Shown here piece by piece: positions 2,031 to 10,818 of a DNA stretch of 64,000 nt. Numbering within the stretch: the first letter of the stretch is position 1; each line of letters begins with the position of its first letter. The position numbers were made by a program, and so were the translations under genes. Under the pieces are notes generated by a model. That model did no database searches. It saw only the letters and a program-made list of their open reading frames with translations, and was not told the DNA's origin. The DNA comes from Sulfolobus islandicus Y.N.15.51 (GTDB lineage: Archaea > Thermoproteota > Thermoprotei_A > Sulfolobales > Sulfolobaceae), in NCBI RefSeq assembly GCF_000022485.1, contig NC_012623.1, positions 1,302,001 through 1,366,000 on the forward strand, read 5' to 3'.

Positions 2031-2429
2031 ATGGGTCTGTTTAAATCTAAGCAAAATGCTAATAAAAAAGTTAACGATCGCTCAGAAAAGGGAGAACGGA
2101 AGAAAGTCAAATATGTCTGGGTTTCATCAAGAAAAGCGATTTTCATCATCGCGGGCGAAGTGAAAGAATCGAAATATAGCTATGGAATACCCATTATACC
2201 GTTACACGGATACTATCGTTCAAAAGACAAATCATATACAGCTAGAGAATTGGGCAATTATTACGTCATATTGAACCTGCCGAAAGATGTTAATATTGAC
2301 GAATTGGAAGGGAAAAGGATCGTTGTCTTAGGGTACGATAAAGGCGCGATATATATCGACGAGAATGATACGAGTGATGAGAGCAACGATAATGATGAAG
2401 AAGGCGAAGGTGGTGATGAGGAGAAATGA
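2031..2429 (+). CDS. Element protein with acidic tail, coupled to the replication gene (132 aa)
   Basis: The GGTGGGG at 2021-2027 acts as a ribosome binding site for the ATG at 2031. The N terminus is basic (LFKSKQNANKK, EKGERKKVKYVW), the middle is beta-rich, and the last 25 residues are almost all D, E, S and N. Its stop overlaps the start of the 664-residue replication protein (ATGA at 2426), which points to translational coupling and possibly a shared function such as loading or copy control. The family is not recognised. Confidence 0.65.
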   Translation: MGLFKSKQNANKKVNDRSEKGERKKVKYVWVSSRKAIFIIAGEVKESKYSYGIPIIPLHGYYRSKDKSYTARELGNYYVILNLPKDVNIDELEGKRIVVLGYDKGAIYIDENDTSDESNDNDEEGEGGDEEK

Positions 2430-4420
2430 CGCCGTTATTGCCGAAAGACTATTGGCGAAGGTTTGAGGACGAAGACGAGACTGATGAAGACGCAACGAAA
2501 AACGGAAAAGCGAATTCGAAAAAATCTCAGAGCGATAGCGAAAAATACAAATTGTCAACACGATCGTCTACAGAAAAACGCATCGCACGCGACAAACGCG
2601 TCGCAAATGCGACGCATGCGACGCGTTTTACTAACTCTCTAGATTACGATTCAGTTGACATCTCCAATAAATCGCAAATTGATGAAATAATTGTAAAAGA
2701 CGAAAAGAACAGAAAAGAAGTTCGCGTAACGATTGAGAAGATAGGCGATAAAGACGTCGTAGTAAAAGACGTGATAAAGACGATACCTAAATTGAAGATT
2801 ACGATACGATATAAGGACAAGACTTGGGAATGTAATGCGGACGTATTTGAGACAGACGATAGCCTACAAACGATAGGGTGCGAAAAGACATTAAGCGAAG
2901 TAGTTAGAGTGACTGGACGACACCCGCCGAAAGAACAAATCACAGATACGATAAACAGATACGTCGACTTGAGTTTTGAGATTAAGGTTACGCCATTATT
3001 AGACTACGTTAAGCAAAAGTACGCCGATAGGTTAGCGGAGATAGAGAACGAACCATTTGAGTGGATACTTCAAAGAACGAACGAAATAGTAGGATACGAA
3101 CGACTGAAGTTATTAACGTTTCTGTCTATCGTTTCGTCTCAAATGCGAAGAATAAGGGGCATATCGCGTGTTCATATCAATATAGTAGGACAATCGGGTG
3201 CGGGTAAATCTTCGGTAGTAAAGAGCGTGTTGAAGTTTGTCGCGGACGACGATATGAAAATTGACGGAACGCGTTTTACAGAAAAATCGTTAGGATATCT
3301 TGGAATTGATAGTTTCGACGGTAGAATAGTCTTTCTTGAACAAATCGATAAACAAAATATCGCGTATCTGAAAGAGGCGATAAGCGAAGAGAAGATAACA
3401 ACGTACGTAACTGTGAAAGTAAAGACTGACGACGGGGAAAAATACGTTACGCAAAAAGTAACTATCGAAGGGCAACCCGTGTTTATTTCGACATCAGTCG
3501 CCGATAACGTCGATCTCGAAAAAGAGCAACTTGAGAACAGAATACTTAACGTATATCTGAAGTACGTATACAGTCGCGAAGTAATTAAGTCGATATTAGA
3601 AAGGGGCAATAATGAGGAGACTTCAGATATCGATAAAATGGTATTTATGGCGTATTTACATAATCGCCCTGAATGGGCGGACATATCACCAGTCGAAAGC
3701 GATATTATGAAATTTACCGATAGACTAGCCGAACTTACTAAGTCGCCCGTAAATAGGACGGCGGAAGTATTACGAAATTTAGTTAGAGCCGTCGCTATCG
3801 CTAGAGGTAAGGCGAAAGCGGATATGGACGATTTGAATTTTGTAATGTCAAATTTCCAATTGGACGTATTCTATAACGGTTTAGGTCTTACAGAACGCGA
3901 TATAGAAATTATAGAGGCGTTACCAGATACGGGCGGTATGAAGACACAAGAAGTTGCGGACGCGTTAAGAATGTCAAAGCAGTACGTACTTAATTTACTG
4001 AAGAATATAGAACGCAAAGGTATAGTCGAAGGTTCGAAAGATGATAATCATACTTTCACGTGGTCTTTAACGGCATTAGGACGAAGAATAAAGGCGTTAG
4101 TTAGCGATAAAGATATCGTCGAAGTCCGCGACGAAAAGGGCGAACTAGTCGGTGCCGTCGACGCCAAATTTCGCCCTGACGCTGACGGAGGAGGAAATAA
4201 AGAAAATGCCGTGTCAGGCAATGACGGAGGAAGAGTGCCGGGAAGCGACGGCGAAACTAATCGCGTTATTGAGGCGTATAAATTCTTGAAGGAGCGTGGT
4301 TGGGTTCGCGTAATGGATATAGCGGGTTGGTTCAGCGACGATATTATAGAAAAATTAAAGCGGAAGGACTTGGTCGAGTTCAATATAATTGATGGTGTTG
4401 AATATGTTCGTGCGAAATGA
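2426..4420 (+). CDS. P-loop replication protein, MCM- or SF3-like helicase with winged helices (664 aa)
   Basis: Residues 1-100 are low-complexity and charged. A Walker A motif GQSGAGKS lies at 255-262, a Walker B IVFLE at 301-305, and a sensor-like strand VFISTS at 352-357 followed by ENRIL with a candidate arginine finger at 372. Residues about 485-560 form a winged helix (TQEVADALRMSKQYVLNLL), and a second one may lie at 610-660, separated by a Gly/Asp linker. There is no visible prim-pol domain, unlike RepA of pRN1. It is most likely the replicative helicase/initiator of the element. Its disordered N terminus is encoded by DNA that matches the downstream repeats in inverted orientation. 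Confidence 0.75.
   Translation: MTPLLPKDYWRRFEDEDETDEDATKNGKANSKKSQSDSEKYKLSTRSSTEKRIARDKRVANATHATRFTNSLDYDSVDISNKSQIDEIIVKDEKNRKEVRVTIEKIGDKDVVVKDVIKTIPKLKITIRYKDKTWECNADVFETDDSLQTIGCEKTLSEVVRVTGRHPPKEQITDTINRYVDLSFEIKVTPLLDYVKQKYADRLAEIENEPFEWILQRTNEIVGYERLKLLTFLSIVSSQMRRIRGISRVHINIVGQSGAGKSSVVKSVLKFVADDDMKIDGTRFTEKSLGYLGIDSFDGRIVFLEQIDKQNIAYLKEAISEEKITTYVTVKVKTDDGEKYVTQKVTIEGQPVFISTSVADNVDLEKEQLENRILNVYLKYVYSREVIKSILERGNNEETSDIDKMVFMAYLHNRPEWADISPVESDIMKFTDRLAELTKSPVNRTAEVLRNLVRAVAIARGKAKADMDDLNFVMSNFQLDVFYNGLGLTERDIEIIEALPDTGGMKTQEVADALRMSKQYVLNLLKNIERKGIVEGSKDDNHTFTWSLTALGRRIKALVSDKDIVEVRDEKGELVGAVDAKFRPDADGGGNKENAVSGNDGGRVPGSDGETNRVIEAYKFLKERGWVRVMDIAGWFSDDIIEKLKRKDLVEFNIIDGVEYVRAK
2519..2668 (-). 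repeat. Inverted copy of the element's 145-bp repeat, inside the replication gene
   Basis: Read on the minus strand, 2570-2519 closely matches 5088-5135 on the plus strand (shared segments include GTTGACA, TTTGTATTT and GCTCTG, with about 19 of the first 23 bases identical). Around 2598-2615 is an 18-bp palindrome that also occurs at 4891-4908, and TTACGATTCAGTTGAC is shared in direct orientation by 2644-2659 and 4937-4952. The replication gene is therefore flanked by related repeats in both orientations. Confidence 0.7.
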
Positions 4421-4736
4421 AGTTGAAGGCAAACGTTACAATCCTGACGATCCCGAACAACGCGAATGCTTACGCAAAGCGAAATGTTATATCGATAGGA
4501 CGGTCGATCCGCCCGTAATACGTATGATAAAGGACGACGACGATTATGAGATCGTCGGTTGGGTTTGGCTTACGGATCGCGGTGAATTAAAATCGAATGG
4601 CGTGAACGTAAAACTCAGTGATGATAAGAAGTATTTCATTTATAATAATAGGAAATACCCGCCGGGCGTTTATTATTTGATACGTCGCCATGGACGTGAG
4701 TTTTTAGTTAGTGAAGAATTCCTAAAGTCGATTTGA
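4404..4736 (+). CDS. Element protein downstream of the replication gene (110 aa)
   Basis: The start is uncertain: ATG codons at 4392 and 4404 both lie inside the end of the replication gene, which stops at 4420; 4404 is chosen as the nearer one. The protein has a charged N-terminal part with two cysteines (ECLRKAKCYIDR) and a beta-rich second half (EIVGWVWLTDRGEL, KYFIYNNRKYPPGVYYLIRRHGREF). No family is recognised. It ends the plus-strand operon; the repeat region follows. Confidence 0.6.
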   Translation: MFVRNEVEGKRYNPDDPEQRECLRKAKCYIDRTVDPPVIRMIKDDDDYEIVGWVWLTDRGELKSNGVNVKLSDDKKYFIYNNRKYPPGVYYLIRRHGREFLVSEEFLKSI

Positions 4737-4890
4737 ATTTTCTAACTGCAGCAGTTTAGACAAAATTCAGTTTTTTGCAAAAGTGAGGAATGGTTTTCTG
4801 TTGACGATTTGTAATTTTCTCTATCATTTTGAGATTTATTGAAATCGTCAACTCAATCGTCAACTGGAGTTTTTGCGATTTGCGTCGCAC

Positions 4891-4908
4891 GCGTCGCAAT
4901 TGCGACGC
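4891..4908. repeat. 18-bp perfect palindrome in the repeat region
   Basis: GCGTCGCAATTGCGACGC is identical to its own reverse complement. A near-identical dyad with the same 8-bp arms and an AA centre occurs at 2598-2615 in the replication gene. More GCGTCGC/CGACGCG half-sites lie just either side (4882-4888, 4911-4918). It looks like a high-affinity protein-binding site shared by the two repeat regions. Confidence 0.7.
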
Positions 4909-5205
4909 AAACGACGCGTTTTTTGCTTTTTTCAGTTTACGATTCAGTTGACGTTCGATTTTTCTCTGTTGCTCTGAGATTTATTGAAATCGTCAACTGG
5001 ATTGTCAACCGGAGTTTGCGTAGTTTGCGTAGAACGCGTAGAAAAATCTGAGCGAACTGAGCAATCTGAGCGTTTTCTCATAGACGATTTAGTTGACAGT
5101 TTGTATTTCTCTCTGTCGCTCTGCAATTTTTTCGATTTTTCGCACAAATGAGGAATCTTTGCCTTCTTCTTTCAAATCGACGCAAATCAAGGCAAAAATT
5201 GACGA

Positions 5206-5237
5206 GTTGCCAATACTTATAAACGCGAATTGGCAAC
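5206..5237 (+). promoter_or_regulatory. int promoter enclosed by a 9-bp inverted repeat
   Basis: The TATA box of the integrase gene (CTTATAAAC, 5216-5224) lies in the loop between perfect 9-bp arms GTTGCCAAT (5206-5214) and ATTGGCAAC (5229-5237). A protein binding both arms would cover the TATA box and block transcription factor binding. The integrase start at 5257 follows about 35 bp after the TATA box. Confidence 0.65.
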
Positions 5238-5430
5238 TATAATACGGGGCGTGAAAATGACGGAAAAACAACGTAGATATAAATTCGGCGACTATATTTT
5301 ACGCGAAAGAAAAGGTCGGTATTATGTCTATAAGTTGGAAACGATAAACGGTGAGGTGAAAGAGCGTTACGTCGGTCCTTTAGCCGACGTAGTCGAATCG
5401 TATCTGAAATTGAAAAATAGCAGTGGGGGT

Positions 5431-5447
5431 GTGGGGGTACCCCCCAC
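5431..5447. repeat. GC-rich hairpin beside the 3' end of tRNA-Arg
   Basis: The arms GTGGGGG (5431-5437) and CCCCCAC (5441-5447) are perfect with a 3-base loop, and a further GTGGGGG copy lies at 5423-5429. It lies three bases from the tRNA 3' end and inside int(N). It may be an integrase arm site, a tRNA transcription terminator, or both. Confidence 0.55.
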
Positions 5448-5449
5448 TA

Positions 5450-5524
<75 letters not shown>

Positions 5525-5715
5525 CCTTATGATACTCTCTACCATATTTAATTATTAAGATTTTAGAGTTAAATACCAGCCTTCATGGTATAACATATAT
5601 ACTCCATTTTAACTAGACTTCAAAATATTATCAGTGACAAAACTCTAGTGATGTCTATATTAATGATTAATATCTACCAGTTAGAAAAATATCCTCTGTA
5701 TTTCATTTTAACTAA

Positions 5716-7593
5716 TTACATCCTTTCTAAGCTCCTTATACCTAAGACGCTTAACCCGTTCTTTAATACAACTGACACTCCTTTTACTATATATAATCTT
5801 AACATTCTCTTCCTTGGATCTTGTTCTTGTAGTACTCTCTCTTTATCATACCAACTATTGAATATGTCAGATAATTCTCTCAGAAACGCTACTAAATCTT
5901 CTAACCTTAAGTTATCTACAGCATTCTTGAATACCTCGGGGAATTTAGCTATCAAGATTAATATGTTCCTCTTATCTCCAACTAAATCACTAAAGTCTAC
6001 CTTGTCCATAGATAAGTTTTCAGTAGATTTAGCTAATATGTTAGCAGCTCTAGCATAAGTATATTGTAAATAAGGTCCACTGTTCTGCTCAAAGCTGGTT
6101 ATCCTGTTTAAATCAAATGATAAAGGCTTATTTGCAGAAACTGACAAAATTGCGTATCTAAGCGCTGCATTTGCTATATCATCAATATTTTCCATATTAC
6201 CACCTTTCTCTTTCAGCTTATTTCTAACTATGTTATCTAGTTTTTCATATATCTCGTCAATGGTTATTATCTTTCCTAGTCTTCCACTCATTCTTAGTCC
6301 TTGGATGTTAACCATCCCATATGAATAATGCAATAAATTTTCCGCAAATCTCGAATATCCGAGTAACTCTAGAGCACCTCTTAATTGTATTTGCGGAATG
6401 TATTGTTCTTCTGCGATCACATTTATAACAAAATCTGCATTAAACTGATTAAATTTGAAAATTGTATACGCAATATCCCTAACGGTATACAATGTAGTTC
6501 CATCGGATCTCATCAACACTAAAGGAGGTATCTTGAGCCCTTTTGGAATTCTCAACTTAGATCTAGCTTCATCACCTAAGAAACTATCTAAGTCCAATGC
6601 TATTACTCCCTTATATGGTATTTTAGCCGAGGAAGACAATAAGGCCTTTAATACTTCATTAACCATTTTCTCCCATAACAAGTCACTCTCATAGTCGAAA
6701 TTGTCAAATCTTATATTAAGTTTGGATAACGTTTCACTAAAGCCTTCTAGCGCATAACTAATGTACTTTCTAATAATCCCCTTTAGTTCATCATTACCCT
6801 CTTCGTATTTCTTTATGATTTCTCCTATCTCCTTCTCCGGCTCCTCCTTAGCATTTATAGTGTCTGCTAACTTATCGAAAAGTACCTCATTTCTATTCCT
6901 TAGATCATTCGCTATTACTATTAGCTCATCTAGTTCTCTCACTTTCTCCCTATACTCTGACTCTGAAAGTTTCTTTAACTCCTCTCTCAACTTCCTAATT
7001 TCTAAAATTACATTAGTCATGGCATATATTATACCCAACCATAGATCCTTCTTTACATTTGGCTCTGGATCAGGAAAACCTAAAAGTTTTAGGCCGTAAA
7101 TTAGAACTGCAACTTGCCTCCCAGTATCGTTAACGTAAAACCTAACATTAACTGAGTGACCTCTAGCTTTTAACGCTCTAGCAAGCGCATCTCCAAGTAT
7201 CGTATTTCTCAAATGGCCTATATGTAACGGATGTATAGGATTAGCGCTCGTGTGTTCAACTACTATTCTTTTTGGCTTTTCGATTTTTTCCAGTCCATAA
7301 CTATCGTCTAGTTTGCTAAAGATACTCACGAAAATATTTCTTAGATTAAGCCTCGCATTAAGATATATTCCGGCTACTTCTATCCTCTCTATTAACTCAC
7401 CTTTATATTCTTGTAATAATTTCGCTTTCTCATTTATATTTCCCTTTATTAATGATGGTAACGCTAATGATAAGTCGCCAAGTTCTTCCCTAGGAGGATA
7501 TGTAATATTTTTAAAGACTTCCTCCTCGCTTATACCTAATTGTGCAGCGACATATTCCGCCAATTCTTTCTTAGCTCTTCCTATTATATCCAC
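5716..7593 (-). CDS. argS: Arginyl-tRNA synthetase (625 aa)
   Basis: Charges tRNA-Arg with arginine for translation; class I enzyme. The signature HIGH is at 124-127 inside SANPIHPLHIGHLRN, the Rossmann core follows, and the weak KMSKS-equivalent segment (SGRLGKIITI) lies near 400. The C-terminal helical anticodon-binding (DALR) domain starts around 500 with the YTYARAANIL pattern. Full length for the family. It is the first chromosomal gene beside the tRNA-Arg integration site, and faces the divergent gene at 7648. Confidence 0.97.
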   Translation of the reverse strand: MDIIGRAKKELAEYVAAQLGISEEEVFKNITYPPREELGDLSLALPSLIKGNINEKAKLLQEYKGELIERIEVAGIYLNARLNLRNIFVSIFSKLDDSYGLEKIEKPKRIVVEHTSANPIHPLHIGHLRNTILGDALARALKARGHSVNVRFYVNDTGRQVAVLIYGLKLLGFPDPEPNVKKDLWLGIIYAMTNVILEIRKLREELKKLSESEYREKVRELDELIVIANDLRNRNEVLFDKLADTINAKEEPEKEIGEIIKKYEEGNDELKGIIRKYISYALEGFSETLSKLNIRFDNFDYESDLLWEKMVNEVLKALLSSSAKIPYKGVIALDLDSFLGDEARSKLRIPKGLKIPPLVLMRSDGTTLYTVRDIAYTIFKFNQFNADFVINVIAEEQYIPQIQLRGALELLGYSRFAENLLHYSYGMVNIQGLRMSGRLGKIITIDEIYEKLDNIVRNKLKEKGGNMENIDDIANAALRYAILSVSANKPLSFDLNRITSFEQNSGPYLQYTYARAANILAKSTENLSMDKVDFSDLVGDKRNILILIAKFPEVFKNAVDNLRLEDLVAFLRELSDIFNSWYDKERVLQEQDPRKRMLRLYIVKGVSVVLKNGLSVLGIRSLERM

Positions 7594-7647
7594 ATCACGT
7601 TTTATGCCTTATAATTTTTAATATTTACTCACTAGAATCATATAACC

Positions 7648-7851
7648 ATGAAGAAAAGGGTGGAAATCCTAATAGTAGAGGATTATAGTGGAAATCCCAA
7701 AATTAATGAGCAAGAAATTAAAAAATCATTAAGTCATATAGGGGATGACATTGTAATAACTAGGTTACATTTGCCACAGTGGACTGAAAATAAAGATGAA
7801 AGTGATCTAGTTGGAGTACATGTAATTGTGAGAGAAGTTGCAGAAACATAA
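7648..7851 (+). CDS. Conserved small Sulfolobales protein (67 aa)
   Basis: The sequence starts MKKRVEILIVEDYSGNP and looks like a compact alpha/beta domain with alternating hydrophobic strands (VEILIVED, DIVITRLHLP, GVHVIVREV). It has no cysteines, membrane segment or catalytic motif. Its end overlaps the TTG start of the Cys-rich gene at 7838, so the two are cotranscribed. It diverges from argS across 54 bp. Function unknown. Confidence 0.7.
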   Translation: MKKRVEILIVEDYSGNPKINEQEIKKSLSHIGDDIVITRLHLPQWTENKDESDLVGVHVIVREVAET

Positions 7852-8230
7852 CGTATGTCCCTATTACAAGAATGGCTACTGCACATCACCTGCATTAGAT
7901 AAGCCTTCTGATATAGTAACTTCTAACAATAGATGCTTTGGTCAATTTAAAACTTGTAGATATTTCTTAGACGACGGGAGCGATAGCAAAACGGGGTTAG
8001 AGAAATTTAATGAAGATAAAACCATTGAGCAAGAGATTAGATTTTACCCAAAAATAAACGCATTAGAAAATATTATAGACAGCGGTTGCGAACATTACCA
8101 GCTCATAAAGAGTGAAAAAGGATTCATTGCGTATTGCAATGCAATTAAAAGGGTTTTAGTAACACGACAGACCATATTATGTAACAAAGAATTCCAAAGA
8201 TGTCCATATAGGACCTTACTCGGTACCTAA
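7838..8230 (+). CDS. Cys-rich protein of unknown function (130 aa)
   Basis: A TTG start overlaps the end of the preceding gene. Nine cysteines lie in pairs or loops (CPYYKNGYC near the N terminus, CFGQFKTC at 33-40, CEHY, CNAIK, then CNKEFQRC near the end). Such spacing suits a metal or iron-sulfur site, but I recognise no named family. The CPYYxxxxC start resembles the small Cys-rich gene at 12472, which begins its motif with CPYYDKKNTKC. Its 3' end overlaps the convergent gene at 8216 by 15 bp. Confidence 0.7.
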   Translation: MQKHNVCPYYKNGYCTSPALDKPSDIVTSNNRCFGQFKTCRYFLDDGSDSKTGLEKFNEDKTIEQEIRFYPKINALENIIDSGCEHYQLIKSEKGFIAYCNAIKRVLVTRQTILCNKEFQRCPYRTLLGT

Positions 8231-8521
8231 CTTAACATACCTACCGTCTTCTGATAAGTTAATTTTTCCTTTTTCAACTAGATCCGCTAGTGCTCTTCTT
8301 ATCTTATCCTCGCTTGCAATTCCAGATAACATACTGTGTAATTCCTTTAGGTTCATTGGCTTTTCATTTAATAAGTCAAGTAATATTTGTTTTAATTCAT
8401 CCTCATTTGGCGCAGTCATTACTATAACGTCTTTATCGGAATAGACTACCTTTAGTTTGTTTTCTACGTTACCAGAATTGGAAGCCGACTTCTTACCTCT
8501 CTTCTTAGTCTCATTACTCAT
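8216..8521 (-). CDS. Small winged-helix-like protein (101 aa)
   Basis: The start is set at the internal ATG (residues MSNETKKRGK) rather than a GTG four codons upstream. After a basic, Ser/Asn-rich N terminus, residues about 40-100 form a winged-helix pattern (LKQILLDLLNEKPMNLKEL, then KIRRALADLVEKGKINLSEDGRYVKL). It is probably a DNA-binding or regulatory protein. The target is unknown. It is transcribed against the 7838 gene. Confidence 0.7.
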   Translation of the reverse strand: MSNETKKRGKKSASNSGNVENKLKVVYSDKDVIVMTAPNEDELKQILLDLLNEKPMNLKELHSMLSGIASEDKIRRALADLVEKGKINLSEDGRYVKLGTE

Positions 8522-8775
8522 ACTAATACACACTCACGTTCATTTCTCATTTCTTACTTTTAAACATTATGCGAATTTTTAAAATCAATTTCATTCTTCA
8601 TTATACCAACGCGTTATAGCATAGAGCAGTAAATATTTCTAATATTAAATAATTAATATCTCTTCATAGCCAAGTCTTATAAAGAATGAGGCCGAAAGCT
8701 TTTAAGGCGGGAAGGAAGCTAGATCATGAATGTATACTTATATTACTGTGTTTAGATTAACATTATTAGGCGACA

Positions 8776-9147
8776 ATGTTGAATCAACCGGACTTCCTTA
8801 GACATGTAGCCAGTAAGATCCTATCGCCACTATCAATAGATTCGAAAAGGTTAGACGAAGCAAGAAGAATTTTAGGAGAGGCAGAAGTTAAATACAACTT
8901 CTCCTCCTACGGAGGAAATCCAAAAAAACTAATAGATTTCCTATTAAGTCCAGACTTCACAGAACTTAGCTTAATTTTAGGCCCAGATGTAACAAAGAAA
9001 CTATTAGAAGCTATAAAAGATAATTATACAGACGAAGACATAAAAAAAGTAGCAGATAAAATGTTGGAAGAAATAAACGGATATACAGAAAACACTGAAG
9101 AGTCTAACGTTAAAGTTTCAGTTAATAAAAAATATTTAGTCTCCTAA
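8776..9147 (+). CDS. Conserved helical protein of unknown function (123 aa)
   Basis: Mostly helical and charged ([49 protein letters not shown]). No motif I can name. The ATG at 8776 has no strong ribosome binding site; an upstream TATA-like CTTTTAAG (8699-8706) would place the transcript start near 8726. Its last 12 bases overlap the end of the convergent thermosome gene. Confidence 0.65.
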
Positions 9148-10818
9148 AGATGGAGTACCAGATCCTCCTTCTCCACCACTTTCTTCTTTACTTCCTTCTC
9201 CACCTTTCTTCTCGCTCTTTAATGGAGCTGCAGCTATTAGGTCATCAATCTTTAATATTGCTGTAGCTGCCTCTGTTGCGCTCTTTAACACTTGAGCCTT
9301 TACTCTTATAGGCTCAATGATGTTTAAGGCATATACATCGTCTACGATCTTCCCACCTATTACATCTACACCAGTATTGGTTAATCCCTTAGCGTGTCTA
9401 GCTCTTAAGTCCATTAGTGCAGATATAGCCTCCAGCCCTGCAGTTTCAGCTAAAATCATAGGTATCTCCTCTAATGCATCTGCAAATGCTTCTATAGCTA
9501 ATTGCTCCTTACCTCCTACACTTCTAGCATACTCTCTTAATTTCATCGCTAATTCTAACTCGATAGCACCACCACCTGGCAATATTACTGGCTCTAATAA
9601 TATGTTCCTCAGAGCATGCAATGCGTCATTTATACTCCTCTCAGCCTCATCTAATGCCATATCATTTGAACCTCTTAACAAGATATTTACGGCTTTCAAG
9701 TTCTTAGCACCTTCTATAAATACCATTTTGTCATTTCCAACTCTCCTTTCCTCAACTAATTCAGCGTATCCTAAATCATCGGGAGTAGCGTCTTTAATGC
9801 TGCTTATTATTCTCGCGCCTAATGCCTTCTCTAATTTCTCTATATCGCTCCTCTTAACCCTTCTTACAGCCAATATACCTTTCTTAGCTAAGAAGTGCTG
9901 TGCGATATCATCAATACCTTTCTGGCATATTACAACGTTAGCACCTATTGACGCTAGTTTATCAACCATGTCCTTAAGATATTTGGATTCCTCATCTAAG
10001 AAAGCCTTGATTTGCTCTGGTGATGTTATACTTATCTTAGCTGAGATTTCAGGTTTTTCTACCTCTAATGCTGCATCCAAAACAGCTATCTTGGCTTTAG
10101 TGACTCTTCTAGGCATTCCAGGGTGCACAACCTCCTTATCTAATACTAGTCCTTTAACTAAGACGCTATCCTCTATACTTCCACCTTTCTTCTTATCTAT
10201 CTTTATTAAGTCTAAACTCACATTATAACCACCATTAGGTAGAGGTTCTGCAACATTAACTATTGCGTCTATTACCATGTCAATTATTTTATTTAATTCA
10301 GCACCTTCTGCAATAAACTTACTTGCTAGTGTAGTAAATACTATCTTTCTTAGAGTATCCCTAGAAACTGAAGAATTCAAATCCCTTATATCGATCTTGG
10401 TTCCTAATTGTGGAAGTAACTCCAAGGCCTTGGTATATGCCTTCTTATACCCCTCAATGATTATTGTTGGATGTATATTTTGATCCAATAAACTTTCAGC
10501 TTTCTCCAATAGAGCACCAGCTAATACTACAGCGCTTGTAGTACCATCACCTACTTCAGCATCTTGTGCTTTAGCTGCTTCTACTAATAGCTTTGCTGCT
10601 GGATGCTGTATCTCCATATCCTTTACTATTGTAGCGCCATCATTAGTTATGGTTACGTCACCGAAACTATCAATTAACATTTTATCAAGACCTTTAGGAC
10701 CTAAACTACTCCTTAACATTTCGGCTAGTGTCTTTGCAGCAAGTATATTGTTCCTTAACGCATCTCTACCAGTAGTTCTACTCGTTCCCTCTTTAAGCAA
10801 TAAGACTGGAGATGCCAT
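9136..10818 (-). CDS. thsA: Thermosome (TF55) alpha subunit, group II chaperonin (560 aa)
   Basis: ATP-driven protein-folding ring subunit of the cytosol, highly abundant and heat-induced in Sulfolobales. The ATPase motif GDGTT is at 90-94 ([15 protein letters not shown]), preceded by NDGATIV at 59-65; [10 protein letters not shown] marks the C-terminal part of the equatorial domain. The tail is Gly/Glu/Ser-rich, as in family members. The N terminus ([20 protein letters not shown]) identifies the alpha rather than beta or gamma subunit. Transcription starts from a TATA box shared with the divergent gene at 10886. Confidence 0.97.

Follow-up and report, generated by a model that had tools for sequence, protein, structure and literature searches.

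The rep gene at the left end of the window (the whole stretch of 64,000 nucleotides that was analyzed; coordinates without a prefix refer to it) contains a self-contained inverted iteron array within its own coding sequence, and this array is the feature conserved among its relatives. Based on sequence comparisons, we believe that the array is a cis-acting DNA site, probably the iteron-type replication origin of a pSSVi-like element, situated inside the gene for its own initiator. Tests of synonymous codon use, of the reading frame and of wobble pairing favor selection on the DNA over selection on the protein or the mRNA.

The window begins with the right part of a 7,590-bp element integrated in a tRNA-Arg gene [tRNA-Arg(TCG), 5450–5524, minus strand]. 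The 46-bp att core at 5448–5493 has an identical copy 7,590 bp upstream (L033:13859-13904), and the SSV-type integrase gene is split at the tRNA gene into an N-terminal part, int(N) (5257–5529, plus strand; Pfam SSV1_ORF_D-335, E 1e-37), and a C-terminal half, int(C), which adjoins the upstream att copy (L033:14175-14711). The spacing of the att repeats and the split integrase indicate that the element is similar to pSSVi in size and integrase type and, together with the homology of its Rep protein (see below), identify it as a pSSVi-like, or fuselloviral, integrative element. There were no matches to the VP1 and VP3 capsid families among the element ORFs scanned, a set that covers part of the small ORFs, and an Rfam search identified only tRNA. 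Upstream of rep are a small RHH-type ORF (1813–1998) and a second small ORF (2028–2429), and the gene is followed by an ORF of 109 aa with no known family (4407–4736, plus strand). In L029 the rep ORF (5972-8560, reverse complement) is fused to an apparent homolog of the small ORF at 2028–2429. Two further repeats were observed beside the integrase gene. Directly before int, a TATA-like sequence is enclosed by GTTGCCAA and TTGGCAAC (5206–5237); this inverted repeat also precedes int in pSSVi, L025 and L026, and is a likely operator of the integrase promoter. The palindrome GTGGGGGTGTGGGGGTACCCCCCAC lies within int(N), adjacent to the att core (5420–5450), with near versions at the equivalent place in SSV10, L025 and L028.

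The largest gene of the element is rep (2426–4420, plus strand), whose product of 664 aa has a disordered N terminus, an MCM-like AAA+ domain and a TrmB/MarR-type winged helix, according to Pfam (TrmB and P-loop matches) and an AF2 model. Rep is homologous to the SSV10/SSV11 protein (58% identity) and to the pSSVi protein (47%), and the database labels for it are either MarR-like or unknown. In the AF2 model, which is based on nine sequences, residues 1–82 have pLDDT values <50 and residues 112–500 form the MCM-like AAA+ region; the winged helix matched by Pfam, at residues 486–542, comes after this predicted MCM-type fold. Comparison of the predicted model with MCM helicases gave a Z value of 23.3 and an rmsd of 3.5 over 281 residues with 14% identity, while the score to the curated Pfam MCM family (15 bits) was below its cut-off of 23.3. 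No lambda O family was found for Rep in Pfam, PHROGs or NCBIfam, the matches being to the MarR/TrmB winged helix and the P-loop, and no primase family was found in it either, the fold being that of an MCM-like AAA+ protein. Based on this model, the name "replication gene" used in an earlier reading of the sequence alone (hereafter, the sequence-only reading) is fair, though deduced, and we infer that Rep acts as the initiator. The annotation of the SSV7 Rep (L022:2425-4476) divides it into two ORFs, B471 and B192, and the match to ASV1 C674 spans both; this split is a frameshift in either the virus or the record.

The origin-like unit in rep (2511–2659, plus strand) is composed of a left flank, a GTCAAC box (2554–2559, plus strand), an inverted array (core at 2578–2629) and a GTTGAC box (2654–2659, plus strand), and the left box is conserved in the closest group of relatives. 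The two outer boxes enclose two opposed arms, each of about three cores of ~6 bp with 9-bp phasing and A/T-rich spacers. In the window the left arm has GCATCG and GCGTCG, and the right arm has two copies of CGACGC. The array core forms the best hairpin of the gene; that its z value is modest (−3.5) and its arms are irregular counts against an origin. Within the 7,590-bp element, the iteron GCGTCGCA is found only in this array and in one of the downstream units described below (U2).

To assess conservation we used 18 full-length relatives whose genes have the N-terminal extension, a set comprising pSSVi, fuselloviruses and integrated elements. Scans of viral contigs (with A1 and the SSV10 Rep) and of genome contigs (with A1) for relatives returned none, and a broader alignment produced ten loci. 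In 17 of the 18 genes, the exception being L031b, the most stable 120-nt hairpin anywhere in rep is in the segment encoding the disordered N terminus, although several of these genes are closely related, which brings the number of independent cases down somewhat, to about 14. The hairpins have z values of −2.3 to −6.3 relative to synonymous-codon shuffles, which preserve both the protein and its codon usage. Since 14 host ORFs treated in the same manner had a mean z of −2.1 and reached −4.0 (ORF 9136–10818), hairpin energy is not decisive on its own, and it is the fixed location and the covariation of the arms that carry the argument. The position is kept down to ~30% protein identity. The array is not annotated in the sequence records examined for pSSVi, SSV10, SSV11, SSV7 and ASV1.

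Nearly all of the relatives have inverted cores of ~6 bp, spaced mostly by 9 bp (three codons), whose sequence varies by lineage while the two arms within one gene match. SSV10, for example, has three copies of CCCCTA followed by three of TAGGGG, and the cores are CCCGCG in L025, TCCGCC in L028, GTTACGG in SSV7, CCCCGG in pSSVi, GCGTCG in the window and TTTGCACCAG in ASV1. The summed match of each arm to its own partner was 326, compared to a mean of 126.5 (sd 17.9) for permuted arms, a sum that none of 20,000 permutations reached. The peptides encoded by the cores include SPKSPKSP...GEIGEIGE. The array is flanked by GTCAAC and GTTGAC boxes in the closest group, and GTCAAC falls in frame 2 in the window, pSSVi, L025, L026 and L064, but in frame 0 in SSV10, indicating that the DNA and not the peptide has been kept. 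Where the two arms fail to match, this is mostly through A opposite A in the spacers (35 of 88 mismatches), and there are 9 G-U pairs on the sense strand versus 19 on the antisense strand; both features are evidence against simple palindrome repair and against a hairpin in the mRNA. Together with the matching arms and the frame of GTCAAC, they point to double-stranded DNA sites that are read from both arms. In addition, GCACCAG in ASV1 (24 kb) and TCCCCGG in pSSVi are confined to their own arrays.

An origin best explains an array that is fixed in place and variable in sequence and that lies in the gene for a probable replicative helicase. An MCM-like Rep might bind the opposed arms, via its winged helix or another domain, load as two rings facing in opposite directions and melt the DNA adjoining the array, which transcription of rep would cross. 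The winged-helix residues appear rather conserved among Reps whose iterons differ, which counts against an origin. Similarly, the extremes of GC skew in five circular records and the element do not coincide with the arrays, and AT enrichment beside the arrays is only mild. An alternative that would also have a protein bind the array is that it is an operator or copy-control site, at which a nearby RHH protein (CopG/ORF56-like) or Rep itself represses rep. The small RHH-type ORF upstream of rep, the ORF56-family copy-control gene of pSSVi and the suitability of opposed short repeats for dimeric regulators are consistent with this expectation, but we consider it unlikely because in most relatives the site is ~70–250 nt inside rep and is preceded by other genes in the same orientation, which would be an odd location for a promoter operator.

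It is very improbable that the array has no function in cis and arose through slippage or template switching in a segment that tolerates it, with the downstream block a chance inverted duplication. Each arm is internally homogenized, the arms of one downstream unit (U1) are homogeneous and yet do not match, and the segment is disordered in the Rep model, all of which favor this reading. However, the conserved place in 17 of 18 genes, the survival of the outer boxes through a change of frame, the unrepaired A-A spacers and a codon choice that adds to pairing are contrary to it. Least probable of all is that the array works in RNA, as a hairpin in the rep mRNA that governs translation or stability, as the sense-strand hairpins are strong but sense G-U pairs are not favored, the spacers stay unpaired, no Rfam match was found and a copy persists on the other strand in noncoding DNA.

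The sequence-only reading had described a fourth, inverted copy of a repeat inside the 5′ end of rep. The inverted similarity that it saw between the minus strand of 2519–2570 and 5088–5135 is real: the coding bases 2511–2697 recur inverted downstream of the gene at 4799–5138, with an inverted local alignment score of 78 compared to a mean of 12.9 and a maximum of 24 for 1000 dinucleotide shuffles. The direct-repeat score of 41 also exceeded all such shuffles (maximum 18). The count of copies is refined: there is one unit of ~146 bp in rep and ~2.5 units downstream. Inverted pairs were found at 2513–2581/5070–5138 (69 nt, 80%) and 2554–2683/4823–4952 (130 nt, 72%), and direct pairs, at an offset of 2293, at 2589–2629/4882–4922 (85%) and 2641–2659/4934–4952 (95%). 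By blastn, 2511–2697 matched the minus strand of 4992–4808 (72%, 188 columns, E 6e-29), 2513–2676 that of 5138–4975 (65%) and 2511–2560 that of 4847–4799 (82%). As the copies are only 65–82% alike, the repeat is old or fast-evolving and not a recent perfect duplication. Along 2589–2659 the rep array agrees with the plus strand of 4882–4952 at 58 of 71 positions, a closer match than in inverted orientation; for its left flank the match is to the minus strand of U1/U2. Such a mosaic, with matches to U1 and to both U2 strands, suggests that units have recombined or been inverted in the past. Two other points of the sequence-only reading were confirmed, namely that the segment is translated as the disordered N terminus of Rep and that the minus strand of the downstream block encodes a similar peptide (SDREKYKLST, in the ORF 5147–4944). 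The check that it proposed on homologous Reps showed that they have the same kind of N-terminal segment.

The downstream copies are in a noncoding block of 365 bp upstream of int (4792–5156), bounded by direct repeats of TGAGGAAT (4784–4791 and 5149–5156). All are on the minus strand: U1 (4993–5138), U2 (4848–4992) and the start of a third unit, U3 (4799–4847). The palindromic core of U2 (4882–4917) shares GCGTCGCA with the rep array. U1 has 9-bp repeats of the TTTGCGTAG type (5015–5041) and the TCTGAGCAA type (5047–5072); these arms are each internally regular and no longer match one another. U1 also retains a coding-like frame, and the minus-strand ORF through it keeps the Rep-like peptide KSKKLQSDREKYKLSTKSS...NKSQSNREK, which indicates that the downstream copies were probably derived from rep coding sequence. 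The corresponding region of SSV10 has no block, and in SSV Lassen and SSV3 sequence similar to 4740–4792, at the left junction, runs uninterrupted to the integrase start; an insertion is thus the best reading of the block. Inverted downstream copies were not found in the other relatives compared, and 31 family genomes gave only weak matches, two of them at G018 rep genes. Hence the inverted framing of rep described in the sequence-only reading is present here but is not conserved, and we have dropped it as a functional layout; of the roles proposed with it (autoregulation, recombination or origin firing), origin firing is the best.

From its sequence, the block appears to be a lineage-specific insertion of origin-like units, in which ~2.5 units of rep-type coding sequence would have been inserted in inverted orientation. 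The restriction of GCGTCGCA to the rep array and U2 suggests that one protein may bind both, and U2 could be a second origin or a titration or copy-number site. U1 may be foreign, having come from another element, or decaying. The mosaic of the rep array is also compatible with the in-gene and stored downstream arrays recombining as an exchangeable cassette, so that origin specificity switches while the reading frame is kept. We regard this as quite unlikely; if true, incompatibility with related viruses could switch along with origin specificity.

An N-terminal array was not seen in the distant homologs L081-L083; in the L081 ORF (3347-5248) the strongest hairpin (z −4.8) is at offset 1524, toward the 3′ end. 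In fuselloviruses whose Rep is short, without the N-terminal extension, there are several large inverted repeats in the noncoding DNA after rep. In short MCM-like Rep fuselloviruses these include L072:5640-6580, L075:4520-4840 and L077:4350-4670, which are candidate origins, although the near-perfect pair of 65 nt in L077 extends across an N and could be an artefact of assembly. It is as if the site could reside either in rep or after it, and the window has both.

Of the elements compared, pSSVi, SSV10, SSV11, SSV7 and ASV1 are the most similar to that in the window, sharing the Rep family, the in-gene array and the SSV-type integrase, and pSSVi is likewise a small integrative element; inverted downstream copies are present only in the window. 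No mapped origin for fuselloviruses or pSSVi was found in the open literature searched, and the repeats may have been described earlier in the original pSSVi papers. Within the Sulfolobales, the experimentally mapped origin of pRN1 is a stem-loop of 100 nt next to rep, in which the structure has been kept but not the sequence (PMC4234260). The array resembles it in having inverted repeats tied to rep and a structure that is kept as the sequence varies. However, in pRN1 the site is in noncoding DNA, downstream of the gene for a Rep with primase-polymerase and SF3 helicase domains, an architecture that the window Rep does not have, whereas the array is inside the gene for an MCM-like Rep.

In phage lambda, ori is located in gene O and is built of iterons of inverted symmetry, with adenine residues as the joints between them (PMC6022878). 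The array is similar in having iterons of inverted symmetry within the coding sequence of what we infer to be the initiator, with adenine-rich joints. The lambda iterons are 18-bp units, each with its own symmetry, and the initiator is of the O type, whereas the array has short cores in two opposed arms, an MCM-like Rep and an archaeal host. The fixed place and architecture of the array, with its changing sequence, permit a precise, codon-neutral test of where replication starts, and its opposed arms suggest how a minimal MCM could load in two directions. If our interpretation is correct, the array would be an archaeal, MCM-based counterpart of the lambda origin in gene O, and the embedding of an origin in an initiator gene would then seem to have evolved separately in the two systems.
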